Of a stretch of DNA of 64,000 bases, positions 13,681 to 54,902 are shown piece by piece (position 1 is the stretch's first letter; every line of letters begins with the position of its first letter). The position numbers and the translations under genes are program-made. The DNA is from Streptomyces armeniacus (GTDB lineage: Bacteria > Actinomycetota > Actinomycetes > Streptomycetales > Streptomycetaceae), in the NCBI RefSeq assembly GCF_003355155.1, contig NZ_CP031320.1:2032369-2096368 (forward strand), given 5' to 3'. The notes below the pieces were generated by a model. The model worked only from the letters and a program-made list of their open reading frames with translations, was not told the origin of the DNA and did no database searches.

Positions 13681-14973
13681 GTGACCTACCGTTTCGCCAT
13701 CGCACCCAGCGGCTTCAAGGGCTCGCTGTCCGCCCGGCAGGCGGCCGACGCCATCGCCGAGGGCGTACGCCGCGCCGTACCCGACGCTCGGCTCGACCGC
13801 ATCCCGGTCGTGGACGGCGGTGAGGGCACGGCCGAGGCCCTGGCCGTCGCCACCGGGGGCACGCTGGTACGGCGTACGGCGACGGGGCCGCTCGGGGAGC
13901 CCGTACGGACGCACTTCGCGGTGCTGGGAGGTTCGGGCGGCGGTGGCTCGGGGGGCGGCGATGACGTGACGGCCGTCGTCGAGATGGCGGCCGTCGCCGG
14001 ACTGTCCCTCGTACCCGGGGACCGGCGCGACCCGTGCGCGACCACCACGTACGGAGTCGGCGAACTGATCGCCGCCGCCCTCGACTCCGGGGCCCGCCGC
14101 ATCCTCGTCGGCTGCGGCGACTCCGGCACCTCCGACGGCGGCGCGGGGGCCCTGCGCGCCCTCGGCGCGCGGCTGCTGGACGCCGACGGGCGCGAACTCC
14201 CGTACGGCGGCGGCGCGCTGGCCCGCCTCGACCGCATCGACGCACGCGACCTCGACCCGCGCCTCCGTACGGCCGAACTCCACGTGGCCTGCAACCCGTT
14301 CAACGTCCTCTGCGGACGGAACGGCGTCGCGCGGGTCTTCGGCCCGCAGAAGGGGGCCGGTCCGGCGCAGGTGGAGCTGCTCGCCCGGGGCCTGGAGCGC
14401 TGGGCGGACGTCCTGACGCGCGACGTCGGGGACGTCGGGGACGGGCAGGGGGCCGCGCGCCTCCGGTACGCGCCGGGCACCGGCGCGTCCGGCGGGCTGG
14501 GCGCCGGTCTGGCGGCACTCGGCGGCACGCTGCTGCCCCGCTTCGACGTACTGCTCGGCCACCTCGACCTCGACGCCCGGCTCGGCGCGGCCGACCTGGT
14601 CATCACGGCGGAGGGCGCGCTGGACCACCAGACGGCACGCGGGAAGGTACCCGCGGAGGTCGCCCGCAGGGCGAAGGCGCTGGGCAAGCCCGTCATCGCG
14701 CTGGCGGGCACGCTGGGCGAAGGCGCGCACACCGTACGGGCGTCGGGCGTGGACGCGTACAGCGGCATCCTGCCCGCGCCGATAGGGCTGGCGGAGGCGC
14801 TGAGCCGCGGCGAGGAGTACCTCGCGGACGCGGCCGAGCACGCGGTCCGCATGATCCTGCTGGGCACGCGCCTGACCCCCACACCGCGCCGCCTCGCCCA
14901 GCCCTTGAGCGAAACGAAGACGCCCACCGGCTCACCCAGCCCGTCCGGCACCCGTTCCCCGTCCGGCGCTTGA
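13681..14973 (+). CDS. glxK: Glycerate kinase (GlxK/GarK type)
   Basis: A 430-residue enzyme that phosphorylates D-glycerate with ATP, feeding glycerate from glyoxylate, serine or tartrate breakdown into glycolysis. The N-terminus APSGFKGSLSARQAADAIAEG and the blocks VVDGGEGTAEAL, GCGDSGTSDGGAGAL, GPQKGA and TAEGALDHQTARGK define the family. It is longer than usual (about 375 to 385 residues): a Gly-rich insertion near residue 85 and a Pro/Ser-rich tail of about 30 residues, of which the last ten codons (SPSGTRSPSGA region) are made of copies of the interspersed repeat found elsewhere between genes. GAGGAG precedes the GTG start. It is probably in an operon with the DASS transporter. Confidence 0.9.
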   Translation: MTYRFAIAPSGFKGSLSARQAADAIAEGVRRAVPDARLDRIPVVDGGEGTAEALAVATGGTLVRRTATGPLGEPVRTHFAVLGGSGGGGSGGGDDVTAVVEMAAVAGLSLVPGDRRDPCATTTYGVGELIAAALDSGARRILVGCGDSGTSDGGAGALRALGARLLDADGRELPYGGGALARLDRIDARDLDPRLRTAELHVACNPFNVLCGRNGVARVFGPQKGAGPAQVELLARGLERWADVLTRDVGDVGDGQGAARLRYAPGTGASGGLGAGLAALGGTLLPRFDVLLGHLDLDARLGAADLVITAEGALDHQTARGKVPAEVARRAKALGKPVIALAGTLGEGAHTVRASGVDAYSGILPAPIGLAEALSRGEEYLADAAEHAVRMILLGTRLTPTPRRLAQPLSETKTPTGSPSPSGTRSPSGA

Positions 14974-15123
14974 GGGCGGCGAGCCGCCAACTCCAACCAG
15001 TCCGGCGATTGAGGACGGCCCTCAGCCAGCGCCGAGCGGCTCCCGCCGGAGACGGGTCACCCCATCGTGCGCGGGTGCCGCCCGGGACGGGCGGGCGTCC
15101 GTCCCCAATCGCCGGACGGGCTT
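14939..15123. repeat. Interspersed repeat cluster 1 (truncated, two forward, one reverse)
   Basis: Contains a truncated copy at 14939-14950, a forward copy at 14958-14979 inside the 3' end of glycerate kinase, a forward copy at 14998-15027 (starting CAGTCCGGCGATTGAGGAC) and a reverse copy at 15098-15123. The last two face each other with about 80 bp between their cores, so the RNA could fold into a long hairpin. The position between convergent genes would allow use as a bidirectional terminator. Confidence 0.85.
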
Positions 15124-15142
15124 GATGTGGCTGAGGTTCGTG

Positions 15143-16576
15143 TCAGGGAAACGCCGGGTGGTCGGTGGGCACGCAGCGCCCGTCCTCCACCCGGTAGCTC
15201 CACCGCGCGCCGTCCGTCACCAACTCCCGCACCGCCCGTACGAACCGCTCGACGTGCTCGTCCGGCGTGCCCGCACCGAAGCTGGCGCGAACGGCGTTCA
15301 ACGACCGCTCCCCCGGTTCCGGCGCTGCCCCGGACGCGCCGGACGGCCCGGACACCCCACCGCACTCCCCCGGCTCGTCCGCCGCGCCCCCCAGCAGCAC
15401 GCGCAGCAGCGGGTGCGCGCAGAACATGCCGTCCCGTACGCCGATCCCGTACTCCGCGGACAGCGCCGCCGCGAAGTGCGAGCTGTTCCAGCCGTCGACG
15501 ACGAACGACAGCACCCCGACCCGTTCCGCCTCCTCCCCGAACAGCGACAGCACCCGCACGCCCGGCACGTCCGCCAGCGCCTCCAGTACGCGGGCGAGCA
15601 GCTGCCGTTCCCGCCGTACGAGGCGGTCGAACCCGGCCTCCTCCAGCGCCCGGCAGGCGGAGGCGACGGCGTACGCGCCGATGACGTTCGGCGAACCGGC
15701 CTCGTGCCGCGCCGCGTTCGTGTGCCACTCGACGTCGAGCGCGCCGTCCGCGCGGCGGGCGACGCGCCTGCTGGCGCCGCCGCCCGAGAGGTACGGTTCG
15801 GCGCCGCGCAGCCAGTCGGGGCGCCCGGCCAGCACACCTGCGCCGAACGGCGCGTACAGCTTGTGCCCGGAGAACGCGACCCAGTCCACGTCCAGTTCGG
15901 CGATGTCCACGGGGTGGTGCGGCGCCAGCTGCGCCGCGTCCAGGACGATCCGCGCGCCGTGCCGGTGCGCGGCGGCGGCGAGTTCGCGTACGGGCCAGAT
16001 CTCGCCGGTGACGTTCGACGCGCCCGTCACGCACACCAGCTTCGGGCCCGCGGGCGCGGCGTGCAGCGCCTCGTCGAGGGCGGCGACGGCCTGCTCGGGC
16101 GTACGCGGCGCGCGCAGACACGTCGTGTGCCGGCCGCGCCAGGGCAGCAGCGACGCGTGGTGCTCCGTCTCGAACACGAACACGCGGGTGCCCTCGGGCA
16201 GCGCACGCGCCAGCAGATTCAGCGAGTCGGTCGTGGCACGGGTGAAGACGACCTCGTCGTCGGGTCGGCACCCGAGGAAGCGCGCCACGGTGGCGCGGCT
16301 CTCCTCGTACAGCCGCGTCGACACCTGCGAGAGGTGCCCGGCACCGCGGTGGACGCTGCCGTAGTACGGGGCGTACGCGGCGAGGTCGTCCCAGACGCGC
16401 CGCAGTACGGGGGCGCTGGCGGCGTAGTCGAGAGCGGCGTAGTACACCTCGCCGCCGGTGACGAGGGGGGCGAGCACGTCGTTGCCGAGTACGGGCAGCG
16501 GCTCGTCGGCGGTGCCGTGCCGACGGGGCGGCGATGCGGGCGTACGGAGGACAGCGGTGTCAACGGACACGGACAT
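15143..16576 (-). CDS. SufS-like class V aminotransferase / cysteine desulfurase
   Basis: A 477-residue PLP enzyme. The PLP lysine is K239 in VAFSGHKLYAPFGAG, and HH at 139-140 stacks on the cofactor. The C-terminal loop keeps a cysteine, C386 in RDGMFCAHPLL, at the place of the catalytic Cys of SufS (RTGHHCAQP), so desulfurase or selenocysteine lyase activity is possible. About 30 residues of Gly/Ser/Pro-rich insertion (403-435) and an N-terminal extension of about 40 residues distinguish it from SufS. It lies behind a SAM-IV riboswitch, which ties it to sulfur amino acid supply. The ATG at 16576 has GAGGGAG eleven bases upstream. Confidence 0.82.
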   Translation of the reverse strand: MSVSVDTAVLRTPASPPRRHGTADEPLPVLGNDVLAPLVTGGEVYYAALDYAASAPVLRRVWDDLAAYAPYYGSVHRGAGHLSQVSTRLYEESRATVARFLGCRPDDEVVFTRATTDSLNLLARALPEGTRVFVFETEHHASLLPWRGRHTTCLRAPRTPEQAVAALDEALHAAPAGPKLVCVTGASNVTGEIWPVRELAAAAHRHGARIVLDAAQLAPHHPVDIAELDVDWVAFSGHKLYAPFGAGVLAGRPDWLRGAEPYLSGGGASRRVARRADGALDVEWHTNAARHEAGSPNVIGAYAVASACRALEEAGFDRLVRRERQLLARVLEALADVPGVRVLSLFGEEAERVGVLSFVVDGWNSSHFAAALSAEYGIGVRDGMFCAHPLLRVLLGGAADEPGECGGVSGPSGASGAAPEPGERSLNAVRASFGAGTPDEHVERFVRAVRELVTDGARWSYRVEDGRCVPTDHPAFP

Positions 16577-16587
16577 GACGGCAGAAC

Positions 16588-16620
16588 TCCCTCGAAGACC
16601 AGGACCCCTGGCGTGAGGGA
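16588..16620 (-). promoter_or_regulatory. Candidate anti-Shine-Dalgarno helix of the riboswitch
   Basis: On the minus strand TCCCTC (positions 16620-16615) can pair perfectly with GAGGGA (16593-16588), which contains the ribosome-binding site of the desulfurase-like gene. The two lie just after the SAM-IV aptamer, so ligand binding could favour this helix and block translation. The pairing is seen in the sequence; the switching model is inferred. Confidence 0.5.
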
Positions 16621-16621
16621 T

Positions 16622-16738
16622 CCGCGCTTGCCGCAGACCTCGCTGCCTGCGGCCTGGTCATCACCCGGGGCACCCCGCCACGGACGGAGGGTTGCCGGAC
16701 AGCGGGCCGGGGCCTTGATCGCTGTCGCTCGTGACCTG
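16622..16738 (-). promoter_or_regulatory. SAM-IV riboswitch
   Basis: The minus strand has the conserved SAM-IV order: GGTCACGAGCGACAGC at 16737-16722, then AAGGCCCCGGCC, CTGTCCGGCAACCCTCC, GGCGGGGTGCCCCGGGTGA and TGACCAGG closing helix P1 near 16655. A GC-rich hairpin (16630-16653) follows and fits the extra 3' domain that separates SAM-IV from SAM-I. In actinobacteria these switches repress methionine and cysteine genes when S-adenosylmethionine is plentiful. Here it precedes the class V aminotransferase by about 50 bases. Confidence 0.92.
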
Positions 16739-16771
16739 GCGGCAGTATGCCATACGCGTTTGCCCCGGCAG

Positions 16772-16966
16772 TAGCCCGTCCGGCCGAGCCCCGATCAAGC
16801 CCGTCCGGCGCTTGACGAGGACGCACCTCAGCCGATCAAGCCCGTCCGGCGATTGAGGACGGCCCTCAGCCACGGAACACGCGCAGACACCGGTGGACGA
16901 TCACGCAACACACCCAACCGCACCCCGCGAACGGGTCGGGGTCCGTCCTCAAACGCCGGACAGGCT
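16772..16966. repeat. Interspersed repeat cluster 2
   Basis: A truncated copy (16772-16784), two forward copies (16798-16822, with a small insertion in the core, and 16838-16874) and one reverse copy (16942-16966). The facing pair encloses about 78 bp of unrelated sequence. The cluster fills most of the space between the SAM-IV leader and the end of trpD. Confidence 0.85.
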
Positions 16967-17041
16967 GGATATGGCCGGGGCCCGCCCCAGGAGGCGGGTC
17001 CCGGCCGGAGCCGTACAAGCGGGGGCGGCGCGCGCAGCTGG

Positions 17042-18106
17042 TTACGCGTTGCTCGCCGACACCCACCGTTCCAGGGCCGCCTTCGCGTCGCCCGAGTCGA
17101 CCGATTCCGCGGCGCGGGCCATGGCCGCCGCGAGGCGGTCGGCCAGGGGGCCGTCCGCCGGGTCCAGGGCGACGAGCGCCGCCGCCGCGTTGAGCAGGAC
17201 CGCGTCCCGTACGGGGCCGTGTTCGCCGTCCAGGAGGCGGCGCGCGATGTCCGCGTTGTACGCGGAGTCCGCGCCGCGCAGGGCCTCGACCGGCACCAGG
17301 TCGACCCCGATGTCCCGCGGGTCGAACGACTCGCGGCGCACAGCGCCGTCCCGTACGACCCACACCGTCGACGTGGCCGTCGTGGTCAGCTCGTCCAGGC
17401 CGTCGTCGCCGCGGAAGACCAGCGCCGACGAGCCGCGTTCCGCGAGCACGCCCGCCAGGATCGGCGCCATCCGCGCGTCCGCGACGCCGGTGGCCTGCGC
17501 GCGTACCCGGGCCGGGTTGGTCAGCGGGCCGAGGAAGTTGAACGAGGTCGGGATGCCCAACTCCCGCCGCGCGCCCGCCACGTGCCGCAGCGACGGGTGG
17601 AACTTCACCGCGAAGCAGAACGTGATCCCGGCCTGCGCCGCCACCTCCGCCACGCGCTGCGGGGTCAGCTCCAGGTTGACGCCGAGCTTCTCCAGTACGT
17701 CGGACGCACCGCTCGCGGAGGACGCCGCGCGGTTGCCGTGCTTGACGACGCGCGCGCCGGTGCCGGCCACCACGATGGCGGCCATGGTGGAGATGTTCAC
17801 CGTGCGCGCCCGGTCGCCGCCGGTGCCGACGATGTCGACGGTGGGACCGGGCACCTCGATCACGTTGGCGTGCTCGTACATGGTGCGTACGAGGCCGGAG
17901 ATCTCCTCCACCGTCTCGCCCTTGGCCCGCAGGGCCACCGCGAAGCCGGCGATCTGCGCGTCGGTCGCCTCGCCGCGCATGATCCGGTCCATGGCCCAGG
18001 CCGTGGCGTCCGCGTTCAAATCCTCACCGGCCAGCAGGGAGCTCAGTACGTCCGGCCACGAGCGGGCCGCCGTGGTGTCGCCTCCAGCGGGGGTCGCAGC
18101 GCTCAT
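17042..18106 (-). CDS. trpD: Anthranilate phosphoribosyltransferase
   Basis: A 354-residue enzyme that joins anthranilate to PRPP in tryptophan synthesis. Motifs are complete: the PRPP loop [18 protein letters not shown], the [18 protein letters not shown] block and [22 protein letters not shown]. The ATG at 18106 with AGGAG eight bases upstream is preferred over longer in-frame options. No other trp gene is adjacent; a lone trpD next to the cytochrome bc1 genes is the standard actinobacterial arrangement. Confidence 0.95.
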
Positions 18107-18481
18107 GGGGATCACTCCTGGCATGGATGGTGGTACGGCTGGGCGGCCGGGCGCACGTCCGGTGGCACCGGTGGCATACGTCCGGCGGGCGCGCCACGGT
18201 GGCGCGGCTCGCCGCCAGCCTAGCGGCGCGGGGACCGGCAGGGGCGTGCTGCCCGCACTCTGATCACGGTGCACCGGCCACGCGACCCGCCACGCACCGC
18301 CCCGCGGCCACCCGCCCGGCGCGCCCGCCGCCCCGGCGGCGCCGCGCCACACAGCAGCGGGCCCCGGCCCCCTCCGTACGAGGGGACCGGGGCCCGCGTG
18401 CGCCGTATCCGGACCGGTCAGCCGACCGTCAGCCGGCAGGCAGACGGCCAGAAGGCAGCCGGCCGCCCGGCACAGGATCAC
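18107..18481. other. Gap between trpD and qcrB
   Basis: No gene is supported. The part near trpD is its promoter/leader region. The part near qcrB holds the strong stem-loop listed at 18359-18395. Nothing else is recognisable. Confidence 0.6.
18359..18395 (-). terminator. Stem-loop terminator after qcrB
   Basis: A 15-bp stem (GGGCCCCGG / CCGGGGCCC extended inward with CCCCT/AGGGG, one mismatch) with a short loop sits 87 bp past the qcrB stop. It has no T-run, as is common for Streptomyces terminators. Confidence 0.75.
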
Positions 18482-20131
18482 TCAGTGGTGGCCGTGACCA
18501 CTCGTGATCTCCTTGTACTCCTCGGCCGTCGGCTTGGGGATCTGCCCGTCCGAGCCGTAGTAGCCCTTGGACAGCTTCGCCCGCAGCTTCTCCGATCTGC
18601 CGACCTTGCGCTGTACGCCGTGCTCGTCCGACTCGGGTCCGATCTCGGCGGGCTCGTACTGCTCGTGCGCGGTGAGCGTGTGCAGGTCCTCCTGCGCCAG
18701 GGGCTCGTGCACCTCGATGAACTCGCCGTGCGGCAGCCGTTTGATGATGCCGGACTCGCGCCCGTGCAGCACCTTCTCGCGGTCCTTGCGCTGGAGGCCC
18801 AGACAGATCCGTTTCGTGATGATGAACGTCAGGATCGGGACCACGAAGAAGCCGATGCGTACGAACCAGGTGATCGCGTTGATCGACAAATGGAAGAACG
18901 TGGCCACCACGTCGTTGCCGCCGCCGATCAGCAGCACCATGTACCAGGCGATCCAGGCCGCGCCGAAGCCCGTACGGGTCGGCACGTTCCGCGGCCGGTC
19001 GAGGATGTGGTGCTCGCGTTTGTCCCCGGTGACCCAGGACTCGACGAACGGGTACACCGCGATGGCCGTCAGCACCAATGGCAGCAGCATCAGCGGGATG
19101 AACACGCCGAGCACAAGCGTGTGCCCCCAGATGTTGACTTCCCAGCCGGGCATGAAGCGGATCAGGCCCTCTGGGAAGCCCATATACCAGTCGGGCTGCG
19201 CGTTGGTGGACACCTGGTCCGGCCGGTACGGGCCGAGGACCCAGATCGGGTTGATCGAGAAGGTCGCGGCGATCATCGCGATGACGCCGAAGACCAGGAA
19301 GAAGAAGCCGCCGGCCTTGGCCATGTAGACCGGCAGGAGCGGCATGCCGACCACGTTCTTGTTCGTCTTCCCGGCACCCGCGAACTGCGTGTGCTTGTGG
19401 TAGAAGACCAGGATCAGATGCGCCGCGAGCAGGCCGAGCATGATGCCCGGCAGCAGCAGCACATGGATCGCGAAGAAGCGCGGGATGATGTCGTGCCCGG
19501 GGAACTCGCCGCCGAACAGGAACATGGCGATGTACGTGCCGACCACCGGCGTCGACAGGATCGCGCCGTGCATGAAGCGGATACCGGTGCCGGACAGCAG
19601 GTCGTCGGGCAGCGAGTAGCCGGTCAGACCGGTGAACATGCCGAGGATGAGCAGCAGGAAGCCGAACATCCAGTTGATCTCGCGCGGCTTGCGGAACGCG
19701 CCGGTGAAGAACACCCGCATCATGTGCACCAGCATGGCCGCGATGAAGATCAGCGCGCCCCAGTGGTGGATCTGCCGGATCAGCAGACCGCCCCGCACGT
19801 CGAAGCTGATGTCCAGCGTCGACGCGTACGCCTCGGACATCACGACGCCGTGCATCGGGACGTACGCGCCGTGGTACTCGATCTCGGCCATGCTCGGCGT
19901 GAAGAACAGCGTCAGGTAGACGCCGGTCAGGATGATGATGATGAAGCTGTAGAGCGCGATCTCACCGAGCATGAAGGACCAGTGGTCCGGGAAGATCTTG
20001 CGCATGTTGGCCTTGGCCAGGCTGTAGATGCCCAGCCGGCCGTCCGCCCAGTCCGCGACCTTCTCGCCCGCGGGCGCCTTGCGCTTGCCCGGCGCACCTG
20101 CGCCGGGTGCGTTCGTGCTTGTCGTACTCAT
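18482..20131 (-). CDS. qcrB: Cytochrome bc1 complex, cytochrome b subunit
   Basis: A 549-residue membrane protein holding the two b hemes and the quinol oxidation and reduction sites. The N-terminal four-helix part contains HHWGALIFIAAMLVHMMRV and the second histidine pair in FFAIHVLLLPGIMLGLLAAH. The quinol site motif is the PDWYMG sequence near residue 315, in place of PEW as in other actinobacteria. The long hydrophilic C-terminus (about 430-549) is typical of actinobacterial QcrB. It overlaps qcrA by 4 bp (ATGA) and is last in the ctaE-qcrC-qcrA-qcrB operon. Confidence 0.97.
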   Translation of the reverse strand: MSTTSTNAPGAGAPGKRKAPAGEKVADWADGRLGIYSLAKANMRKIFPDHWSFMLGEIALYSFIIIILTGVYLTLFFTPSMAEIEYHGAYVPMHGVVMSEAYASTLDISFDVRGGLLIRQIHHWGALIFIAAMLVHMMRVFFTGAFRKPREINWMFGFLLLILGMFTGLTGYSLPDDLLSGTGIRFMHGAILSTPVVGTYIAMFLFGGEFPGHDIIPRFFAIHVLLLPGIMLGLLAAHLILVFYHKHTQFAGAGKTNKNVVGMPLLPVYMAKAGGFFFLVFGVIAMIAATFSINPIWVLGPYRPDQVSTNAQPDWYMGFPEGLIRFMPGWEVNIWGHTLVLGVFIPLMLLPLVLTAIAVYPFVESWVTGDKREHHILDRPRNVPTRTGFGAAWIAWYMVLLIGGGNDVVATFFHLSINAITWFVRIGFFVVPILTFIITKRICLGLQRKDREKVLHGRESGIIKRLPHGEFIEVHEPLAQEDLHTLTAHEQYEPAEIGPESDEHGVQRKVGRSEKLRAKLSKGYYGSDGQIPKPTAEEYKEITSGHGHH

Positions 20132-21225
20132 CCGCGCTCCCAGAAGGCCGGGCCGACAGGCTCCGCGAAGTCACCCTGCGCTTCGAGGTAGCCGTCCTTG
20201 TTGACGCTGATCTTCAGCTGCGGCAGCGGGTGGCCCGCCGGGCCGAAGAGCACCCGTGCGCCGTCGGAAAGGTCGAACGTCGACTGGTGGCAGGGGCAGA
20301 GCACGTGGTGCGTCTGCTGCTCGTAGAGGCTGACCGGGCAGCCGACGTGTGTGCAGATCTTCGAGTAGGCCAGGATGCCTTCGTGGGACCAGTCGAGGGT
20401 CCGCTTGTCCTTGATGTCGTCCGGCTCGATGCGGACGAGCATCAGGGCGGCCTTGGCGATCTCCACGTTGAAGTCGTGGTCGTGCTGGTCCAGGCCCTCG
20501 GGCTTGGCGAAGGCGAGCGAGCCGACGACGATGTCGTCCGGCTTCAGCGGCTCGTCGGTGTTCTCGTTGATGAGCAGCTTGCCCTTTTTCCAGGCCGTGT
20601 GCCGCATCTTGTCCTCGGGCAGCGGCCCGAGGTCACGCAGCAGTACGACGCCGGAGAGCGGCACCAGCGTCAGCGCCCCGAACATGGTGTGCCGCACCAG
20701 CTTGCGCCGTCCCAGCTGGGACTCCTTGGCGCCCTGCCGGAAGTCCGCCAGCACCTTCTGCCGTACCTCGGGCTCCGCCTCGATGGGGTGCCGCTCGTCG
20801 GCGATCTCCACGTCCGACATGAGCGTACGGGCCCAGTGGACCGCGCCCGCGCCGATGCAGAACAGGGCGAGGCCGAGGGTGAGGCCCAGCGACAGGTTCA
20901 GCGCGCTGACGTGCCCCAGCGGCCAGATGTAGACGATCTTGTCGATCGGGAACGCCACGTACGAGGCGATGAAGCCGACCGTGGCCAGCATCGACACGGT
21001 GAACAGCATCGCGACGGTGCGCTCCGAACGCTTCGCCGCCCGCTCGTCGATGTCCTGTACCCGGTGCTCGTGCGGGGGCAGCCCGGGGTCCGCGAAGGGG
21101 TCCTCGTCGGGGACGCCGACCTCTCCGTGGCCCTGCGGCTCGCGCTCGCCGGGGAGCTTCTCGTTCTCGTCCTCTGGCACGTTCTCGTCAGATCCAGTTC
21201 CGTGGGATCCAGTCTCACTGCTCAT
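20128..21225 (-). CDS. qcrA: Rieske iron-sulfur subunit of cytochrome bc1
   Basis: A 365-residue actinobacterial Rieske protein with three N-terminal membrane helices (about 70-92, 105-127, 178-196) instead of one. The 2Fe-2S ligands are C291 and H293 in CTHVGC and C310 and H313 in CPCHQS. The first ~65 residues are acidic and hydrophilic. It overlaps both neighbours by 4 bp, so translation of qcrC-qcrA-qcrB is coupled. It passes electrons from quinol to the diheme cytochrome QcrC. Confidence 0.97.
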   Translation of the reverse strand: MSSETGSHGTGSDENVPEDENEKLPGEREPQGHGEVGVPDEDPFADPGLPPHEHRVQDIDERAAKRSERTVAMLFTVSMLATVGFIASYVAFPIDKIVYIWPLGHVSALNLSLGLTLGLALFCIGAGAVHWARTLMSDVEIADERHPIEAEPEVRQKVLADFRQGAKESQLGRRKLVRHTMFGALTLVPLSGVVLLRDLGPLPEDKMRHTAWKKGKLLINENTDEPLKPDDIVVGSLAFAKPEGLDQHDHDFNVEIAKAALMLVRIEPDDIKDKRTLDWSHEGILAYSKICTHVGCPVSLYEQQTHHVLCPCHQSTFDLSDGARVLFGPAGHPLPQLKISVNKDGYLEAQGDFAEPVGPAFWERG

Positions 21226-22034
21226 GACTTCTTGGCCTTTGCGGTCCGCGCTGCGACCCAGACGGCGACGGCGATCAGCCCGCCGAGCCCGAACACCCAG
21301 CCGAACAGGCCCTCGCTGACGGGGCCGAAGCCGCCCAGCTTGTAGCCGCCGGGGGTCTCCGCCTCGCTGCTGTTGACCGTCTTCAGGTACGCGATGACGT
21401 CGCCCTTGTCCTTCGGCGTCATCACCGTGTCGGGGAAGGACGGCATGTTCTGCGGGCCGGTCTGCATCGCCTCGTACGCGTGCTTCTTGGTCACGTCACC
21501 GAGGTCCGGTGCGAACTTGCCCTTGGACAGGGCGCCGCCTTCGCCGGTGAAGTTGTGGCACTGGGCGCAGTTCGTACGGAACAGCTCGCCGCCGTTGGCG
21601 AGGTCCGCGTCGTTCGGGTCGTACTGCGACTTGTCCGGCACGCTCGGGCCCGGGCCCAGCGAGGCGATGTACGCCGCCAGCTGGTCGGTCTCCTTCTGCG
21701 TGTACTTCGGCTGCTTCTTCGGCACCTGCGCGCCCGGCTGCTGCGCGGGCATACGGCCGGTGCCGACCTGGAAGTCCACGGCGGCGGCGCCGACACCGGT
21801 CAGGCTCGGGCCGTCACTGGTGCCCTTGCCACCGGTCCCGTGGCAGCTGGCGCAGCCGACGGTGTAGAGCTTCTTGCCCTCCTCGATGGCGAGGGAGGAA
21901 CTCGACCCCTGGGCGGCCTTCGCCTCATCCGCGGGGGCGAGCGCGGTGTACAGCCCCCCGGTGGCCGCCAGCGCGAAGAGTAGGACGACGAGCGCCGCCA
22001 GCGGATGGCGCCGTCGTGCGGAGAGCTTTTTCAC
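21222..22034 (-). CDS. qcrC: Diheme cytochrome c subunit of the bc1-aa3 supercomplex
   Basis: A 270-residue protein with an N-terminal membrane anchor, two heme-c domains (CASCH at 61-65 and CAQCH at 156-160, the latter preceded by GGELFRTN) and a C-terminal membrane helix (GLIAVAVWVAART). In actinobacteria it replaces a soluble cytochrome c, linking the Rieske protein directly to the CuA site of CtaC. Coupled to qcrA by a 4-bp overlap and 89 bp downstream of ctaE. Confidence 0.97.
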   Translation of the reverse strand: MKKLSARRRHPLAALVVLLFALAATGGLYTALAPADEAKAAQGSSSSLAIEEGKKLYTVGCASCHGTGGKGTSDGPSLTGVGAAAVDFQVGTGRMPAQQPGAQVPKKQPKYTQKETDQLAAYIASLGPGPSVPDKSQYDPNDADLANGGELFRTNCAQCHNFTGEGGALSKGKFAPDLGDVTKKHAYEAMQTGPQNMPSFPDTVMTPKDKGDVIAYLKTVNSSEAETPGGYKLGGFGPVSEGLFGWVFGLGGLIAVAVWVAARTAKAKKS

Positions 22035-24648: not shown

Positions 24649-25049
24649 ACGCCCAAGCTAGAGACGCCGCGGTCCGGCGGCCCGCCGACAGCCTGCGAAC
24701 GGGTTACGCGTACGCACCGGTTGCCCGGAGGGCGTAGACGAGGGCGCGCCGAATCCAGCCCGTCCGGCGCCGATCAAGCCCGTCCGGCGTTTGAGGACGG
24801 CCCCCGGCCGCGATGGCGGTGCGCTGGGCCGTGCGCAGTGGGCCCACCGGCGAGCCGGTGGCCGCTTCGGGCCGTCCTCAAACCCCGGACGGGCTGGTTT
24901 GCGGGCGCTCCGGCCCGTCGCCAAGGTGCGGAGGGCTGCCCCCGGCACACGGCTGCGCCGCCGCAGCGGGGTTGTCCCGCCGCGACGGCGCGCGACCACA
25001 AAGGGGAGGGTCCGGCGGAATCGCCGGCCGTCTCAGCCTCTACGTACGG
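24649..25049. other. Gap holding interspersed repeat cluster 3
   Basis: No gene is supported in this 401-bp space between ctaF and the transpeptidase. A truncated repeat (24757-24770), a forward copy (24776-24800) and a reverse copy (24871-24896) lie here; the facing pair has 70 bp between them. The remainder (24900-25049) shows nothing recognisable apart from expected 3' sequence of ctaF. Confidence 0.7.
24757..24896. repeat. Interspersed repeat cluster 3 (facing pair)
   Basis: A truncated AGCCCGTCCGGCGC, then a full forward copy, 70 bp of spacer and a full reverse copy (CCGTCCTCAAACCCCGGACG). The layout is the same as in clusters 1, 2 and 4. Confidence 0.85.
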
Positions 25050-28408: not shown

Positions 28409-28536
28409 CAGCCCGTCCGGCGTTTGAGGACGGCCCTCAGCCACGGTGGGTCCCGCGCCCGGCAGACATCGGTTAAGGAACCGGCCCTGTGCCGCCCGGC
28501 GGCCGCCCCGGTCCGTCCTCAAACGCCGGACGGGCT
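28409..28536. repeat. Interspersed repeat cluster 4 (facing pair)
   Basis: A forward copy at 28409-28442 (with the GGCCCTCAGCCAC extension also seen at 15010, 16860 and 51705) and a reverse copy at 28511-28536, about 70-75 bp apart. Confidence 0.88.
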
Positions 28537-28710
28537 TGGGTGAATGGGACCGCGCCCACGTCGCGCACCGCAGGTGCGTCGTGGTCGAGGGTCGTCCTCA
28601 AGCGCCGGACGGGCTGAAGGTGCGGACGGGCTTGGGTGGGACCGCGCCCACGTCGCACACCGCAGGTGCATCGTGGCCGAGGGCCGTCCTCAAACGCCGG
28701 ACGGGCTGAC
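28535..28710 (+). repeat. Tandem duplication, ~96 and ~80 bp, each with a reverse repeat copy
   Basis: Two adjacent units begin with CTTGGGTG, share GGGACCGCGCCCACGTCGC, a CACCGCAGGTGC segment and end in a reverse copy of the interspersed repeat (28591-28617 and 28681-28708). Unit one has about 15 extra bases at its end. The second unit ends 20 bp before the GTG of the downstream gene, so the duplication moved the promoter region outward. Confidence 0.85.
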
Positions 28711-28730
28711 GGGCGCGTTAGCGTGCGTAC

Positions 28731-42881: not shown

Positions 42882-43085
42882 ATGGCGTGGACGTGGCGGT
42901 TCGAGAAGTCCGACGGCACGGAGACGGAACCCGCCGTCCCGCCAGAGGAGTTCCCCACGCAGGGAGACGCCGAGTCGTGGATCGGCGAGGTCTGGAAGGA
43001 CCTGCTGGAGGGCGGCGCGGACCAGGTGACCCTGCTGGAGGACGGCACCCCGGTCTACGGCCCGATGAGCCTGCACGCGGAGTAG
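42882..43085 (+). CDS. Small conserved acidic protein
   Basis: A 67-residue protein (MAWTWRFEKSDGTE at the start, YGPMSLHAE at the end) with GGGAGG six bases before the ATG. It has even composition and strong codon bias, so it is coding. It is common in Streptomyces next to the cobalamin genes as far as I recall; no function is known. Divergent from the MBL-CobU gene. Confidence 0.75.
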   Translation: MAWTWRFEKSDGTETEPAVPPEEFPTQGDAESWIGEVWKDLLEGGADQVTLLEDGTPVYGPMSLHAE

Positions 43086-43438
43086 TCACCGCTGCCGCTG
43101 CCCCGCTACGGGGCGGCGGCAGCCACCCCGTACGACAGCGGGGCCCGGCGGCGCACCCCCAGCCCGTCCGGCACGGGCACGCACCCACGACCGTAAGCAC
43201 CACTTCCAGCCCGTCCGGCGCTTGAGGACGGACCGTCACCCCGTGACCGCCGCACGCGGCCCATGGCAGCGCGGCCCACCGCCCGGCGGCCACACGCCAG
43301 TTGGGCCGGCGAGAGGCCGTACGCACGCCCGCCCGGTGCGGACACCGGTGCAGACCCGGCGCGGACCGAGCGCGGGCCGGGGCGCGGACCCGGGTGCGCG
43401 CCCGCGAGTGGCGCCGGCGCGTGCCGTAATCTTCGCGC
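43086..43438. other. Gap before cobT with interspersed repeats
   Basis: No gene is supported. It holds a truncated repeat (43160-43173) and a full forward copy (43207-43231). No cobalamin aptamer was recognised on either strand. The last ~60 bp should contain the cobT promoter. Confidence 0.6.
43160..43231 (+). repeat. Interspersed repeat cluster 5
   Basis: Truncated copy AGCCCGTCCGGCAC followed 35 bp later by a full copy AGCCCGTCCGGCGCTTGAGG; no reverse partner nearby. Confidence 0.85.
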
Positions 43439-47337: not shown

Positions 47338-47407
47338 CACCCGGCACCGTACGGGGGTCCCGCGGGCCCGTCCCATACCCCCGACCTGCGCACGAGCCCC
47401 GCACCGC

Positions 47408-47440
47408 ACGGCCCCGATCGCTCACGGCGAACGGGGCCGT
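47408..47440 (+). terminator. Stem-loop after pepA
   Basis: ACGGCCCCG and CGGGGCCGT pair perfectly around a loop that has an inner TCGC/GCGA pairing. It is 70 bp after the pepA stop. Confidence 0.6.
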
Positions 47441-47626
47441 CGGCGTCCGTACCGGACCCGAGTCCCGTCTTCCGGCAACAAGTGCGAAGATGGATCCTCG
47501 GCAGGACAGGGCCCCAGCGGCTTCCAACAGAAGACGAGTCCAGGGCCGAACACAAATGCGGCCGCACATACAGCCGCCCGGCCGGTGAGGACCGGCCCCG
47601 GCGCACCCATGCATGGAGGACGTGAC

Positions 47627-49015
47627 GTGGCGAACGACGCCAGCACCGTTTTCGACCTAGTGATCCTCGGAGGCGGTAGCGGCGGCTATGCCGCTGCCCT
47701 GCGCGCCGCACAGCTGGGTCTGGATGTCGCGCTGATCGAGAAGAACAAGCTCGGCGGCACCTGTCTGCACAACGGCTGCATTCCCACCAAGGCGCTGCTG
47801 CACGCCGGCGAGATCGCCGACCAGGCGCGCGAGAGCGCCGAGTTCGGCGTGAAGGCCAGCTACGACGGCATCGACATGGCCGGCGTGCACAAGTACAAGG
47901 ACGGCGTGGTCGCGGGCCTGTACAAGGGCCTGCAGGGCCTGGTCGCCAGCCGCAAGGTGACGTACGTGGAGGGTGAGGGCCGGCTCTCCTCCCCCACCTC
48001 CGTCGACGTCAACGGCCAGACGTACAACGGCCGCCACATCCTGCTCGCGACCGGCTCCGTGCCGAAGTCGCTGCCGGGTCTGGAGATCGACGGCGACCGG
48101 ATCATCTCCTCCGACCACGCCCTCGTCATGGACCGCGTGCCGCAGTCCGCGATCATCCTGGGCGGCGGCGTCATCGGCGTCGAGTTCGCGTCCGCCTGGA
48201 AGTCCTTCGGCACGGACGTCACGATCGTCGAGGGCCTGCCGCACCTGGTGCCCGCCGAGGACGAGAACAGCTCCAAGCTGCTCGAGCGCGCCTTCCGCAA
48301 GCGCGGCATCGCCTTCTCGCTGGGCTCCTTCTTCGAGAAGGCCGAGTACACCGACAGCGGTGTCAAGGTCACGCTCGCCAACGGCAAGACGTACGAGGCC
48401 GAGGTGCTGCTCGTCGCCATCGGCCGCGGCCCGGTCTCGCAGGGGCTGGGGTACGAGGAGGCCGGGGTCGCCATGGACCGCGGCTTCGTGCTCGCCGACG
48501 AGTACTGCCGTACGAACGTGGCGACCGTCTCGGCCGTCGGCGACCTCATCCCCACCCTCCAGCTCGCGCACGTCGGCTTCGCCGAGGGCATCCTGGTGGC
48601 CGAGCGGCTGGCCGGGCTGAACCCGGTGCCGGTCGACTACGACGGCGTGCCGCGCGTGACGTACTGCCACCCCGAGGTCGCCTCGGTCGGCGTCACGGAG
48701 GAGAAGGCCAAGGAGGTCTACGGCGCGGACAAGGTCGTGACGCTCAAGTACAACCTCGGCGGCAACGGCCGGAGCAGGATTCTGAAGACCCAGGGCGAGA
48801 TCAAGCTCGTCCAGGTACGCGATGGCGCCGTGGTCGGCGTCCACATGGTCGGTGACCGGATCGGCGAGCAGGTGGGCGAGGCCCAGCTGATCTACAACTG
48901 GGAGGCGCTGCCGGCCGAGGTCGCGCAGCTCATCCACGCTCACCCGACGCAGAACGAGGCACTCGGCGAGGCCCACCTGGCGCTCGCGGGGAAGCCGCTG
49001 CACTCGCACGACTGA
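47627..49015 (+). CDS. lpdA: Dihydrolipoyl dehydrogenase (E3)
   Basis: A 462-residue flavoprotein from the GTG at 47627 (GGAGGA seven bases upstream). FAD site ILGGGSGGYAAALRAAQLG, redox disulfide in GGTCLHNGCIPTKAL, NAD site ILGGGVIGVEFAS, and the C-terminal HAHPTQNEALGEA with the active-site His. It reoxidises the lipoyl groups of the E2 encoded 60 bp downstream, for pyruvate and 2-oxoglutarate dehydrogenase complexes. Confidence 0.97.
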   Translation: MANDASTVFDLVILGGGSGGYAAALRAAQLGLDVALIEKNKLGGTCLHNGCIPTKALLHAGEIADQARESAEFGVKASYDGIDMAGVHKYKDGVVAGLYKGLQGLVASRKVTYVEGEGRLSSPTSVDVNGQTYNGRHILLATGSVPKSLPGLEIDGDRIISSDHALVMDRVPQSAIILGGGVIGVEFASAWKSFGTDVTIVEGLPHLVPAEDENSSKLLERAFRKRGIAFSLGSFFEKAEYTDSGVKVTLANGKTYEAEVLLVAIGRGPVSQGLGYEEAGVAMDRGFVLADEYCRTNVATVSAVGDLIPTLQLAHVGFAEGILVAERLAGLNPVPVDYDGVPRVTYCHPEVASVGVTEEKAKEVYGADKVVTLKYNLGGNGRSRILKTQGEIKLVQVRDGAVVGVHMVGDRIGEQVGEAQLIYNWEALPAEVAQLIHAHPTQNEALGEAHLALAGKPLHSHD

Positions 49016-49075
49016 CGCACCCGGGCGCGACACCACCACGAACATCCGTACTTTCCGTAAGGAGCAACCGAAACC

Positions 49076-50881
49076 ATGGCGGTTTCCGTAACCCTGCCGG
49101 CGCTCGGCGAGAGCGTCACCGAGGGCACCGTCACCCGCTGGCTGAAAGCCGAGGGTGAGCAAGTCGAGGCCGACGAGCCGCTGCTCGAGGTCTCGACCGA
49201 CAAGGTCGACACCGAGATCCCCGCCCCCGCGGCGGGCACACTGGCCTCCATCAAGGTGGCCGAGGACGAGACGGTGGAGGTCGGCGCCGAGCTGGCCGTC
49301 ATCGATGATGGGGCATCCCCGCCGCAGGCAGGGGACGGGTCCGGCGCAGAGTCGGAGGCGGCCCAGCAGCCCGAGCCCACCCCCGCTGCGCAGGCCGAGC
49401 AGCCGGCGGCGCAGCCGCAGGCCGCACCGGAGCAGCCCGCACCGGAGCAGCCCGCACCGGCCGCCGCCCCGGCGGGCGGTTCCGCCGAGGGCACGGACGT
49501 CGTCCTGCCCGCGCTGGGCGAGTCCGTCACCGAGGGCACCGTCACGCGCTGGCTGAAGCAGGTCGGTGAGTCCGTCGAGACGGACGAGCCGCTGCTCGAG
49601 GTCTCGACCGACAAGGTCGACACCGAGATCCCGGCTCCCGCGGCGGGCACGCTGCTCGAGATCGTGGTGGGCGAGGACGAGACGGCCGAGGTCGGCGCCA
49701 AGCTGGCCGTCATCGGCTCCGGGGCGGCTGCCGCCGCGCCCGCCGAGGCACCGGCGCAGCCCGCGCCCGCCCCGGCGCAGCCGGAGCCCGCTCCGGCGCC
49801 CGCCCAGCAGGCGCCGCCACAGGCCGCACCGGCCCAGGCACCGGCACCGGCTCCCGCCCCGGCGGCTCAGCCGCAGCCCGCCGCTCCGGCTCAGGCCCCG
49901 GCGCCCGCGCAGGCGCCCGCCCCGGCGGCGCCCGCGCCGTCCGCGGCCGAGAACGAGGGCGCGTACGTCACCCCGCTCGTCCGCAAGCTGGCGGCCGAGC
50001 ACGGCGTCAACCTCGCGAGCGTCAAGGGCACCGGCGTGGGCGGCCGTATCCGCAAGCAGGACGTCACGGCCGCGGCCGAGGCGGCCCGGCAGGCGGCGCA
50101 GCAAGCACCCCAGGCTGCCGCGCCGAAGGCCGCGGCGGCTCCGCTGGAGCCGTCGCCGCTGCGCGGCCAGACGGTGAAGCTGCCGCGGGTCCGCAAGCTC
50201 ATCGGCGACAACATGATGAAGGCCCTGCACGGGCAGGCGCAGCTGTCGAGCATGGTCGAGGTGGACGTCACCAAGATCATGAAGCTGCGGGCGCGCGCGA
50301 AGGACTCCTTCGCGCAGCGCGAGGGCGTCAAGCTCTCGCCGATGCCGTTCTTCGTCAAGGCCGCCGTGCAGGCGCTCAAGGGGCACGCGGGCATCAACGC
50401 GCGCCTCAACGAGGACGAGGGCACCATCACCTACTTCGACGCCGAGAACGTCGGTATCGCGGTGGACTCCGAGAAGGGCCTGATGACCCCGGTCATCAAG
50501 GCCGCCGGTGACCTCAACATCGCGGGCATCGCCCGCAAGACCGCCGAGCTGGCGGGCAACGTACGGGCGAACAAGATCAGCCCGGACGACCTGGCCGGCG
50601 CGACGTTCACGATCAGCAACACCGGTTCGCGCGGCGCGCTGTTCGACACGATCATCGTGCCCCCGAACCAGGCGGCGATCCTCGGCGTCGGCGCCACCGT
50701 CAAGCGCCCGGTGGTCCTCGACCACCCCGACCTGGGCGAGACGATCGCGGTACGCCACATGACGTACCTGACGCTCTCCTACGACCACCGCCTGGTGGAC
50801 GGCGCCGACGCCGCCCGCTACCTGACGGCGGTCAAGGAGATCCTCGAGGCAGGCGAGTTCGAGGTCGAGCTCGGCCTCTGA
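49076..50881 (+). CDS. sucB: 2-oxoacid dehydrogenase E2, dihydrolipoamide acyltransferase
   Basis: A 601-residue E2 with two lipoyl domains (about 1-76, K43 in [11 protein letters not shown]; about 140-216, the same motif), Ala/Pro linkers, a subunit-binding domain (about 300-335, [16 protein letters not shown] and GRIRKQDV) and the catalytic domain (about 360-601, [16 protein letters not shown]). The name sucB is the usual one, but in actinobacteria this E2 (DlaT in M. tuberculosis) serves pyruvate dehydrogenase, with AceE as E1; aceE lies 1.1 kb downstream. An extra PP/GDG insertion follows lipoyl domain 1. Confidence 0.95.
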
Positions 50882-50912
50882 CCCACTGCCTCCGACCGCA
50901 CCGCGGCACGTA

Positions 50913-50950
50913 CGGCGGCCCCGCCCGGAGTTCTCCGGGCGGGGCCGCCG
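50913..50950 (+). terminator. Strong stem-loop after sucB
   Basis: A perfect 17-bp stem (CGGCGGCCCCGCCCGGA and its complement) with a four-base loop starts 32 bp after the stop codon. Confidence 0.85.
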
Positions 50951-51047
50951 CCGTGTCGGGGCGGTGTGACCTCCGCCCCTGCCCAGTACACGGGGCCGGG
51001 GCGGAGCCGTAAGGTCGAGGCACCAGCCGCCCTTGGAGGAGCACATC

Positions 51048-51671
51048 ATGGCCCCGCCCGTCGTCCACTCGCTGCGTGAGCAGATCCGGGAGCACATTGT
51101 GGAGGGCATCGTCAGCGGGCGCTGGAAGCCGGGCGAACGCATCGTGGAACGCCGGATCGCCGTGGAGCTGCAGGTCAGCCAGACGCCCGTGCGGGAGGCC
51201 CTGCGCGAGCTGGAGGCGCTGCGGCTGATCGAGTCCGCGCCCAACAAGGGCGTACGCGTACGCGAACTCACCGCCGCCGACCTGGAGGAGATCTACCCGG
51301 TGCGCGCGGGCCTGGAGCAGATCGCCGCCGAGCTGGCCGCGCCCCGGCTCAGCGAGGACGCCTCCCGGCTGGAACCGCACGTGGCGGCGTTGTACGAGGC
51401 GGACCGCAGCGGGGACGGCGAGGCACAGGTCCGGCACACGGTGGCCTTCCACCGCGAACTGGTCCGGGCCGCAGGCAACAGTGTGCTGCTGCACACCTGG
51501 GAGTCGCTGGGCATCGAGGTGTGGACGGCGCTGTCGATCCGCTGGCTGGGCACGGTGCAGGAGTCGTACGCGGAGGAGCACGAGGCGGTACTGGAGGCGT
51601 TCCGCAGACGGGACCCGCGCATCGGCGACCTGGTCAAGTCCCACGTCCTGGGCTGCGCCCCCCGCGCCTAG
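51048..51671 (+). CDS. GntR-family transcriptional regulator (FCD type)
   Basis: A 207-residue regulator. The N-terminal winged helix shows LREQIREHIVEGIVSGRWKP and VSQTPVREALRELEALRLIE; the rest (about 75-200) is an all-helical FCD ligand domain with metal-site residues including H in VAFHRELVRAAGN. The ATG at 51048 follows GGAGGA by seven bases. It lies upstream of aceE, whose promoter carries a palindrome in its spacer, so it is a candidate PdhR-like regulator of the pyruvate dehydrogenase genes. The ligand (pyruvate or lactate) is a guess. Confidence 0.88.
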   Translation: MAPPVVHSLREQIREHIVEGIVSGRWKPGERIVERRIAVELQVSQTPVREALRELEALRLIESAPNKGVRVRELTAADLEEIYPVRAGLEQIAAELAAPRLSEDASRLEPHVAALYEADRSGDGEAQVRHTVAFHRELVRAAGNSVLLHTWESLGIEVWTALSIRWLGTVQESYAEEHEAVLEAFRRRDPRIGDLVKSHVLGCAPRA

Positions 51672-51682
51672 CCGCCGCACCC

Positions 51683-51718
51683 AAGCCCGTCCGGCGATTG
51701 AGGACGGCCCTCAGCCAC
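51683..51718 (+). repeat. Interspersed repeat copy 6 (single)
   Basis: A full forward copy with the GGCCCTCAGCCAC extension, 12 bp after the GntR stop codon. Confidence 0.88.
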
Positions 51719-51850
51719 AGAGCAGCGGTCAGCCGGGCACCGGGCCCGCAGGGGGCGCCGCGCAGGCCGCCGGCCCTGCACCGCTGTGGCCCCACACCAC
51801 CGTGGCCATGCACCGTCGCGGCGGAAAGAGAAGCAGGCACCACGTGCCCC

Positions 51851-51916
51851 ATTCCATGGCACGGAATGCCAATTTCGCCGGATGCTTTGATCGATCATCG
51901 ATCGCAGGCGTACAGT
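51851..51916 (+). promoter_or_regulatory. aceE promoter with palindromic operators
   Basis: TTGATC (51887-51892) and TACAGT (51911-51916) with 18 bp between them make a good housekeeping-type promoter. The spacer contains the perfect palindrome GATCGATCATCGATC (51889-51903), overlapped by TGATCGATCA. A second inverted repeat, ATTCC-N7-GGAAT, is at 51851-51867. Binding at the spacer would block RNA polymerase. The adjacent GntR regulator is the obvious candidate. Confidence 0.55.
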
Positions 51917-52022
51917 CCACTTGCTGGGGCGTAACCCCTGTCCTGCCTGCCAACGGGACCCACCGGTTCTCACACCACACAGCGCCCAGCTCAGCTGTCC
52001 GCCCGTCCGGAAGGTGGCCACC

Positions 52023-54773
52023 ATGCCCGATCCCGTACGCAACTCCCCGAGCGAGCTCGACCAGCTCCCGGATCGCGACCCGCAGGAGACCGCCGAGTGG
52101 CGGGAGTCGCTGGACGCCGTGACCGCCCATGCGGGCGGGCACCGCGCCGCGTACCTGCTGCGCCGCACCCTCGAGCACGCCGAGCGCTCAGGCGGCGGCA
52201 CGAGCGGCAGTGGCCACGACACCCCCCTCCTGCCGAAGCTGCTGGAGACGGACTACCTCAACACCATCCCCACCGCCGCCGAACCGGAGTTCCCCGGCGA
52301 CGCGGCGCTGGAGGCCCGTATCACCGCCTGGAACCGCTGGAACGCCGCCGCGATGGTCACCCGCGGCAGCCGGTACGGCCTGGGCGGGCACATCGCCACC
52401 TTCGCGTCCGCCGCCTGGCTCTACGAGACCGGGTTCCAGCACTTCTTCCGGGGCAAGGAGGACGCGGCGTCCGGCGGTTCGGGCGACCAGCTCTACATCC
52501 AGGGCCACGCCTCCCCCGGCATCTACGCCCGCGCGTTCCTCGACGGCCGGCTGACCGAGGCGCATCTCGACCGCTTCCGGCAGGAGGCCGGGGGCGGCCC
52601 GGTCGAGGGCCTGCCCTCGTACCCGCACCCGCGCCGCATGCCGTGGCTGTGGGAGTTCCCGACGGTCTCGATGGGCATCGGCCCGATATCGGCCGTCTAC
52701 CAGGCGCGGTTCAACCGCTATCTGGCCGGCCGCGGCATCAAGGACACGGCGGGCTCGCACGTCTGGGCGTTCCTCGGGGACGGCGAGATGGACGAGCCCG
52801 AGTCGACGGCGGCCCTCGCGCTCGCCGGCCGGGAGGGCCTCGACAACCTCACCTTCGTCATCAACTGCAACCTCCAGCGCCTCGACGGCCCGGTCCGCGC
52901 GAACTTCAAGATCGTGCAGGAGCTGGAGGCGCAGTTCCGCGCCGCCGGCTGGAACGTCGTCAAGTCGCTGTGGGGCGCCGCCTGGGACGAGCTGTTCCGG
53001 CTCGACACCACGGGCGCGCTCGTACGGCGGCTGCGCGAGGTGCCGGACGCGCAGTTCCAGACGTACGCGACGCGCGACGCCGCGTACATCCGTGAGCACT
53101 TCTTCGGCGCCGACCCTGCGCTCGCCGAGCTGGCGAAGCTGCTGTCGGACGCGAAGATCAGCGAGTGCTTCCACACCTCGCGCGGCGGTCACGAGCCGCG
53201 CAAGGTGTACGCGGCGTACCGCGCGGCCGTCGCGCACAAGGGCGCGCCGACGGTGATCCTGGCGCAGACCGTGAAGGGCTGGACGCTCGGTTCCGGTTTC
53301 GAGTCGCGCAACGCGAACCACCAGATGAAGAAGCTGGACAACACCCAGTTCCGCGCGATGCGCGACCTGCTGGAGCTGCCGATCCCGGACAGCGCGCTGG
53401 AGGACGGCGAGCTGGTGCCGTACGCGCATCCCGGCGCGGACTCGCCCGAGGTGCGGTACCTCCAGGAGCGGCGCGCCGAGCTCGGCGGCCCCGCGCCCGC
53501 GCGCCGGGTGCACCCGGTGGCGCTGCCGGAGCCGTCGGCGAAGCCGTTCGAGACGCTCGCGAAGGGGTCCGGGTCGCAGGAGATCGCCACCACGATGGCG
53601 TTCGTGCGGCTGGTCAAGGACCTCATGCGGGACAAGGAGACCGGCAAACGCTGGGTGCCGATCGTGCCGGACGAGGCGCGGACCTTCGGCATGGAGTCGC
53701 TGTTCCCGTCCGCGGGGATCTACTCGCCGCTGGGCCAGACGTACGACCCCGTCGACCGCGACCAGCTCCTCTACTACAAGGAGGCCGCGGACGGTCAGAT
53801 CCTCAACGAGGGGATCACGGAGGCCGGTTCGATGGCGGAGTTCACGGCCGCGGCGTCGTCGTACGCGACGCACGGCGAGCCGATGATCCCGTTCTATATC
53901 TTCTACTCGATGTTCGGCTGGCAGCGGACGGCCGACCAGATGTGGGCGCTCGCCGACCAGCTCGGCCGCGGCTTCCTCATCGGCGCCACCGCGGGCCGTA
54001 CGACCATGACCGGCGAGGGCCTCCAGCACGCGGACGGCCACTCCCCGCTGATCGCGTCCACCAACCCGGCGGCGCTCAGCTACGACCCGGCCTTCGCGTA
54101 CGAGGTCGGCGTGATCGTACGGGACGGGCTGCGCCGGATGTACGGGCCGGACGCCGAGCAGCACGAGGACGTCTTCTACTACCTGACCGTCTACAACGAG
54201 ACGAAAGTGCAGCCTCCGATGCCGGAGGGCGTCGAGGAGGGCATCCTCCGCGGCCTGTACCGGTTCCGCGAGGGCGAGACCCCGGACACGGAGGGCGCGG
54301 ACGGCGAGGAGTCGCCGCGCATCCAGCTGCTGGCGTCCGGCACAGCGGTCCACTGGATCCTCGACGCGCAGCGCATGCTCGCCGAGGAGTGGGGCGTGAC
54401 CGCCGACGTGTGGTCCGCGCCGTCCTGGAGCGAGCTCCGCCGCGATGCCCTGGCCTGCGACGCGGCACAGCTCAGGGGCGAGGACCGGGTCCCGTACGTC
54501 ACCCGCGCGCTGGCCGGGGCACCCGGCCCGGTGCTGGCCGTCAGCGACTGGATGCGCGCCGTCCCGGACCAGATCAGCCAGTGGGTGGAGCAGGACTGGT
54601 CCTCGCTCGGCACGGACGGCTTCGGCCTCTCCGACACCCGCGAGGCCGCCCGGCGGCACTTCGGCGTCGACGCCGAGTCGGTGGTCGTCGCGGCACTGGC
54701 CCGGCTGGCCCGGCGCGGCGAGGTCAAGCAGGAGACGGTCCGCGAGGCGGCGGACCGCTACGGCCTGGCCTGA
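52023..54773 (+). CDS. aceE: Pyruvate dehydrogenase E1, homodimeric type
   Basis: A 916-residue thiamine-diphosphate enzyme from the ATG at 52023 (GGAAGG upstream). ThDP site: [16 protein letters not shown] through [18 protein letters not shown]; other family blocks are [16 protein letters not shown] and [18 protein letters not shown] [18 protein letters not shown]. It decarboxylates pyruvate and acetylates the E2 lipoyl groups. Gamma- and actinobacteria use this homodimeric E1. It partners LpdA and the E2 encoded upstream. A strong terminator follows. Confidence 0.97.
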
Positions 54774-54790
54774 GCCGCGGCCCAACACCA

Positions 54791-54825
54791 GAGCACCCGT
54801 CGCCCGTGGGGGGCGACGGGTGCTC
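54791..54825 (+). terminator. Perfect 15-bp stem-loop after aceE
   Basis: GAGCACCCGTCGCCC and its exact complement flank a five-base loop GTGGG and are followed by TTACG. It lies 18 bp after the aceE stop. Confidence 0.9.
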
Positions 54826-54868
54826 TTACGTGCGACGGCGGAAAGAGCGCCACGGCGCACGCGACCCC

Positions 54869-54902
54869 CAGCCCGTCCGGCGCTTGAGGACGGCCCCCAG
54901 CC
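54869..54902 (+). repeat. Interspersed repeat copy 7 (single)
   Basis: A full forward copy AGCCCGTCCGGCGCTTGAGG followed by ACGGCCCCCAGCC, about 45 bp past the aceE terminator and before the end of metS. Confidence 0.88.

Follow-up and report, generated by a model that had tools for sequence, protein, structure and literature searches.

A REP/BIME-like family of hairpin repeats in Streptomyces that is not RAYT-linked in Streptomyces armeniacus

Repetitive extragenic palindromes (REPs) are known above all from Proteobacteria, and REP-associated tyrosine transposases (RAYTs) are taken to be what they rely on. In the portions of PMC3733652 that deal with REPs and with bacterial interspersed mosaic elements (BIMEs), these are hairpins of 20-40 nt that occur in many copies between genes, prefer convergent and tandem gaps, form head-to-head and tail-to-tail dimers as well as heterodimers, and supply stop codons to genes; for the CGTC-type REPs, too, the transposase is given there as not known (Di Nocera 2013, PMC3733652). 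Here, we describe a repeat family found in a 64,000-nt stretch of Streptomyces armeniacus DNA (hereafter the window; C1:2032369-2096368 of the single-contig, 8,083,249-base genome G000), in which a first-pass annotation had noticed an interspersed repeat and had taken it for a maintained family of the REP type. By its anatomy and placement, this family works like REPs and BIMEs, it lies outside the GTAG and CGTC super-families and, in G000, it is not RAYT-linked.

The repeat unit consists of a core of ~22 nt, AGCCC-GTCC-GGCGNTTGA-GGAC, and, behind it, a tail that varies from one genome to another. This core can form a stem of 4-6 bp with a 9-nt loop, in which GTCC pairs with GGAC around GGCGNTTGA and, in G000, CCGTCC with GGACGG. 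A search with AGCCCGTCCGGCGNTTGAGG allowing up to 3 mismatches found 15 sites in the window (9 forward and 6 reverse), reproducing the number, orientations and positions of the cores noticed at first. The four truncated copies reported with them are also real: each is a head-only copy, that is AGCCCGTCCGGC without the remainder of the core, and each precedes full cores. The extension said to be common to several copies, GGCCCTCAGCCAC, turned out to be the tail of one of two half-types. The "same variable base" that the copies were thought to keep is a position in the loop, mostly occupied by T, A or C (T 62, A 31, C 17 and G 4 of 114). Extending the search to the whole of G000 with the 21-base pattern CCGTCCGGCGNTTGAGGACGG and up to 2 mismatches, as the first-pass annotation had proposed, gave 363 sites (178 forward and 185 reverse), when the reversed pattern gave none on either strand, and 100 dinucleotide shuffles of the window contained a mean of 0.05 sites (largest 1) versus the 15 real ones. 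Neither shuffled nor reversed sequence therefore yields cores in comparable numbers and, together with a depletion inside genes, this refutes for G000 the idea that chance or the composition of a GC-rich genome created the cores, an idea which nothing in G000 supports and which we consider virtually impossible there; such an effect could account for genomes with one to three matches, as the control gives up to three.

To describe placement, we used four blocks of G000 totalling 1.664 Mb (20.6% of the genome), where 1331 genes were predicted by our own codon-usage gene caller and 84.6% of the sequence is coding. Searching this sample for a 28-base core with a limit of 6 mismatches gave 122 sites, versus 6 for the reversed control. 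Sites with 7 and 8 mismatches (23 and 120) were no more frequent than in the control (30 and 169), so that decayed copies past the threshold are not in evidence. As many as 108 of the 122 cores are intergenic, another 11 share exactly 19 bases with a gene end and 3 are inside genes, far from a similar frequency inside genes given a coding share of 0.846. The same holds in the window, where the nearly exclusive intergenic placement claimed initially is confirmed for 14 of the 15 cores (own gene calls), the exception being core 14956, which overlaps the glycerate kinase gene at its end. What produces the 19-base overlaps is that the core's TGA serves as stop codon for the overlapped gene, always on the core's own strand. 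Read in that frame, the exact core translates into SPSG, one residue and the stop, and the glycerate kinase C-terminus is also translated through a head-only copy. The 57 occupied gaps comprise 19 convergent, 8 divergent and 30 tandem ones, versus 5.8, 18.0 and 33.2 expected from gap length, counting gaps of 150 nt or more (p 1.5e-8), which shows a preference for convergent gaps and an avoidance of divergent ones. Cores in tandem gaps are closer to the upstream stop (median 127 nt) than to the next start (median 261 nt). Two other genomes, with 15 loci each (some of which hold both halves of a pair), had 6/12 and 5/14 of their classified sites in convergent gaps and 2 each in divergent gaps, with one site inside a gene in each genome and two unclassifiable sites in G049. 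The repeat thus has what marks a REP: a short palindrome, many copies and a mostly intergenic position.

The cores of G000 are frequently paired. Within 190 nt, the sample contained 39 pairs in the "->..<-" arrangement, 2 in "<-..->", 9 in "++" and 12 in "--", with ~1.8 of each expected from random placement between genes. The halves pair tail-to-tail into inverted doublets of ~130 nt, mostly behind genes and mostly with a spacing of 83-147; judging from their tails, 27 of the 39 doublets combine the two half-types, 8 and 1 are of one kind and 3 are unclear. The inverted pairs and mosaic clusters that characterise BIMEs are therefore found in G000. The geometry is different in G051, where units stand head-to-head ("-" then "+", 31 to 53 nt apart) among the listed matches showing both strands, and at the 15 loci of G049 most units are single, with two further hairpins after them. 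Head-only copies stand ahead of a core in the same orientation for 9/95 cores in G000 and 9/71 elsewhere (some heads there being counted for more than one core); other arrangements, in G000 and other genomes respectively, were in front and opposite (0 and 1), behind in the same orientation (1 and 1) and behind and opposite (5 and 2). Orphan tails were at control level (7 and 8).

Doublets at distant sites resemble each other: 436/741 pairs of doublets align over 85% of their length with 62.8 to 89.7% identity, apart from one local duplication at 98.8%. Among the 27 mixed doublets, the mean pairwise identity is 0.915 and 0.888 in the arms, 0.762 in the 15 columns past the first arm and 0.467 in the middle. 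Since the arms are nearly constant while the middles have diverged, and since decayed copies are missing, the core seems to be under selection. RNA folding gave z values below -2 for 37/38 doublets (median -6.9) and for 17/60 element-free intergenic stretches (median -0.8), and structured RNA is predicted on both strands of the elements. In loci of other genomes (n=66), the outer stem pair is G:C in 52 cases, C:G in 11 and mismatched in 3. The swapped-stem form CTCCGGCGNTTGAGGAG has 36, 21 and 2 copies in three of the nine Streptomyces present among 296 sampled genomes of the phylum and none in G000; outside the genus, it was found once in each of two genomes, and its backwards control gave four matches in three genomes. 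This change from GTCC/GGAC to CTCC/GGAG in other genomes supports the hairpin, the palindrome being kept by paired changes at one stem pair and in few independent events, because copies within a genome are related.

The family is widespread in the genus, with very uneven copy numbers. At least one match to the 21-base pattern (up to 2 mismatches) was found in 122/150 sampled Streptomyces and none in the other 28; 61/150 have at least ten copies, 89/150 fewer than ten, and the highest number is that of G000. The backwards control gave one to three matches in 37/150 genomes, so small copy numbers may be due to chance. An exact 17-base core was detected in 98/157 genomes of the order, all 98 of them among the 142 Streptomyces sampled and 0/15 outside, with two control matches in all; two Embleya plasmid records also carry it. 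In one of the Embleya records (sp. NBC_00896, L204), a linear plasmid of 3.1 Mb, a related repeat is present in at least 40 matching pieces, which extends the family beyond Streptomyces. No copies were found in the closest relative compared (79-93% DNA identity to G000), where four comparable gaps, a comparison suggested by the first-pass annotation, are shorter and empty; for the 28410..28536 doublet, 15 loci of other Streptomyces have no core. Filled and empty sites differ between lineages. Arrays of cores in other Streptomyces (seven at L194 1490-1780; seven "-" cores at G127:C6:213529-214088) suggest local amplification.

Compared with the elements treated in those portions of PMC3733652, the Streptomyces repeat has the same hairpin size, gap preference, dimer types and supplied stop codons as REPs and BIMEs. 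It differs from the GTAG and CGTC super-families by lacking an unpaired GTAG or CGTC tag, an AT-first stem and a CCA tail, and by its 9-nt loop: a GT[AG]G tag is absent from the hairpin foot, the flank consensus being TC(A/C)AGC, and the CGTC of the core sits in the stem, with GG(C/A)CC, GAGG and ACGCC as tails. According to the sections of PMC3116915 on the REP doublets forming hairpins (REPINs) of Pseudomonas fluorescens SBW25, both families have inverted doublets at a preferred spacing (71 and 110 bp there), conserved ends, a variable spacer and tandem arrays; unlike these REPINs, the G000 family has no RAYT and its singletons are as well conserved as its doublets. It also shares inverted pairs and a species-specific copy number with RAYT-associated REPs, as far as the excerpted text of PMC2817692 describes them, but their defining Pfam01797 gene is missing in G000. 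The REP-type reading proposed initially is supported by copy number, by the extragenic placement at 3' ends, by the hairpin, by inverted doublets that mostly combine two half-types and by sites that are filled or empty depending on the lineage. The suggested link to a RAYT-like transposase is not supported in G000; the GT[AG]G tag is absent, and doublets are no better conserved than singletons.

Altogether, we consider that these repeats form a genus-wide REP/BIME-like family that was inserted by a machinery other than Y1/RAYT and whose core was then kept by selection, with a probability of about 0.65. Units or doublets would have been inserted within lineages by a trans-acting machinery recognising the hairpin, probably as single-stranded DNA, which we propose because no target-site duplication was seen; this machinery would not be a Y1/RAYT transposase of a known kind. 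Insertions may then survive downstream of stop codons, a place where a structured RNA and the core's TGA would do little harm, and the core would be kept, plausibly as a 3'-end RNA structure that could block exonucleases or aid termination in both directions. Such an action at RNA 3' ends is plausible from the place and the fold of the elements. A more detailed scenario, in which this hairpin-recognising machinery was common to or transferred across Streptomyces, the family was amplified independently in several distant lineages and the core was kept as a host 3'-end element, is only tentative; independent amplification is suggested by the opposite doublet geometries and by copy-rich genomes having no core at the one orthologous gap compared.

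The whole anatomy is REP-like and doublet middles are strongly diverged, as would fit relics of REPs that a Y1 transposase had spread before being lost from copy-rich genomes. A search with PF01797 (Y1_Tnp) did not reveal in G000 the RAYT-like transposase that the first-pass annotation had suggested looking for, and among twelve copy-rich genomes, G000 included (six newly tested), only G079 matched, over 44 positions, making it a fragment in one genome versus nothing in the other eleven. Some Y1 match exists in 46/150 Streptomyces and in 9/17 of those with at least 50 copies (some being fragments), and G085, which has 150 copies and lies outside the set of twelve, has seven; still, Y1 presence is not clearly linked with copy number (medians 6.5 and 4.5, p 0.07). 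Considering also that relics should show decayed cores, which are few, and that the GT[AG]G tag is absent, this origin appears unlikely. Selection on a host 3'-end element, acting as a terminator or RNA stabiliser and moving only by duplication and gene conversion, would explain why the repeat sits behind stops and in convergent gaps, why its RNA is structured on both strands and why the core is constant when the middle is free. It hardly accounts for 363 copies in G000 and none in a near relative, for the many Streptomyces with few or no matches, or for a geometry that varies between species, and the hairpin is not followed by the T-run of an intrinsic terminator; we judge it improbable. Miniature inverted-repeat transposable elements (MITEs) are short non-coding elements with inverted arms. 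A DDE insertion sequence could give rise to deletion derivatives that have arms of ~25-28 bp as terminal inverted repeats and resemble the ~130-nt doublets, whose inverted arms are nearly identical over ~25 nt and which are homologous over their whole length at distant sites. Yet target-site duplications at the 39 doublets were not above shuffles, many units are single, another species has a head-to-head geometry, and a parent insertion sequence was not found in the scans made: neither the families listed for core-neighbour genes nor those of ten genes located between clusters (0.4-4.5 kb from each other, 1.66-Mb sample) included a transposase, the neighbour scan covering part of the other between-cluster genes. 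A MITE origin is thus very improbable.

The family seems to have no open-access description: we found none in the open-access literature, where a search for six 14-base forms of the core matched no paper. The words Streptomyces and Actinobacteria are absent from the main text of PMC3733652, the available portions of PMC12306157, PMC1590033, PMC6006769, PMC4681348 and PMC11678152 do not describe the repeat, and the accessible sections of two Term-seq papers with motif searches at 3' ends (PMC8269248 and PMC8914203) do not mention it. Since the family is genus-wide in Streptomyces, copy-rich in some species and without RAYT in G000 and further copy-rich genomes, it lends itself to testing, in a natural setting, by what other routes such repeats can spread and be maintained. 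It provides hundreds of common 3'-end hairpins in the main antibiotic-producing genus, with effects on termination and mRNA stability that are measurable, and it matters for annotation, as the core gives genes their stop codons and short SPSGx C-termini.

Table 1. Copies of the repeat family in the window (positions are those of the window)
Feature	Position	Strand	Remarks
Head-only copy AGCCCGTCCGGC	14938..14949	+	upstream of full cores; codes part of glycerate kinase C-terminus
Core, 2 mismatches	14956..14975	+	TGA 14971-14973 is the stop codon of gene 13681-14973
Inverted doublet ->..<-	14995..15122	.	cores 14995-15014 (+) and 15103-15122 (-); convergent gap
Head-only copy	16773..16784	+	
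Core	16798..16817	+	partner in 41-nt tandem step
Repeat-family part	16839..16966	.	
Head-only copy	24757..24768	+	
Repeat-family part	24777..24895	.	
Inverted doublet	28410..28536	.	cores 28410 (+) and 28517 (-); between divergent ctaC-like and aminotransferase-V genes
Core in 92-nt tandem repeat	28596..28615	-	repeat copies 28545-28620 and 28637-28712, 92% alike
Core of second tandem copy	28688..28707	-	
Head-only copy	43161..43172	+	
Single core	43208..43227	+	3' of gene 42882-43085
Repeat-family part	51684..51703	+	
Single core	54870..54889	+	convergent gap behind pyruvate dehydrogenase E1 gene

Elsewhere, a widespread Streptomyces protein of unknown function is encoded between two 83% identical same-direction doublets (L075:18350-18895). 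In some viral contigs of 47-57% GC (L195, L199, L202; L196, L201; L198; L200), the sequence AGCC(C)GTCCGGCGNTTGAGGAC is apparently intergenic, lying in L195, L199 and L202 shortly ahead of the start of a putative terminase-like gene (protein read by eye); its excess over altered patterns is weak. At gathering thresholds, an Rfam scan of the window gave no match for the repeat and only a SAM-IV riboswitch (109 bits) at 16619-16736 (-), which precedes the aminotransferase-V gene 15143-16576 and has the 16.8-kb repeat cluster directly upstream. Two other tandem repeats lie between predicted genes of the window: a 23-base unit in four to five copies (58064-58178) and about a dozen copies of the 8-base unit GGCGTCAC (59987-60090).
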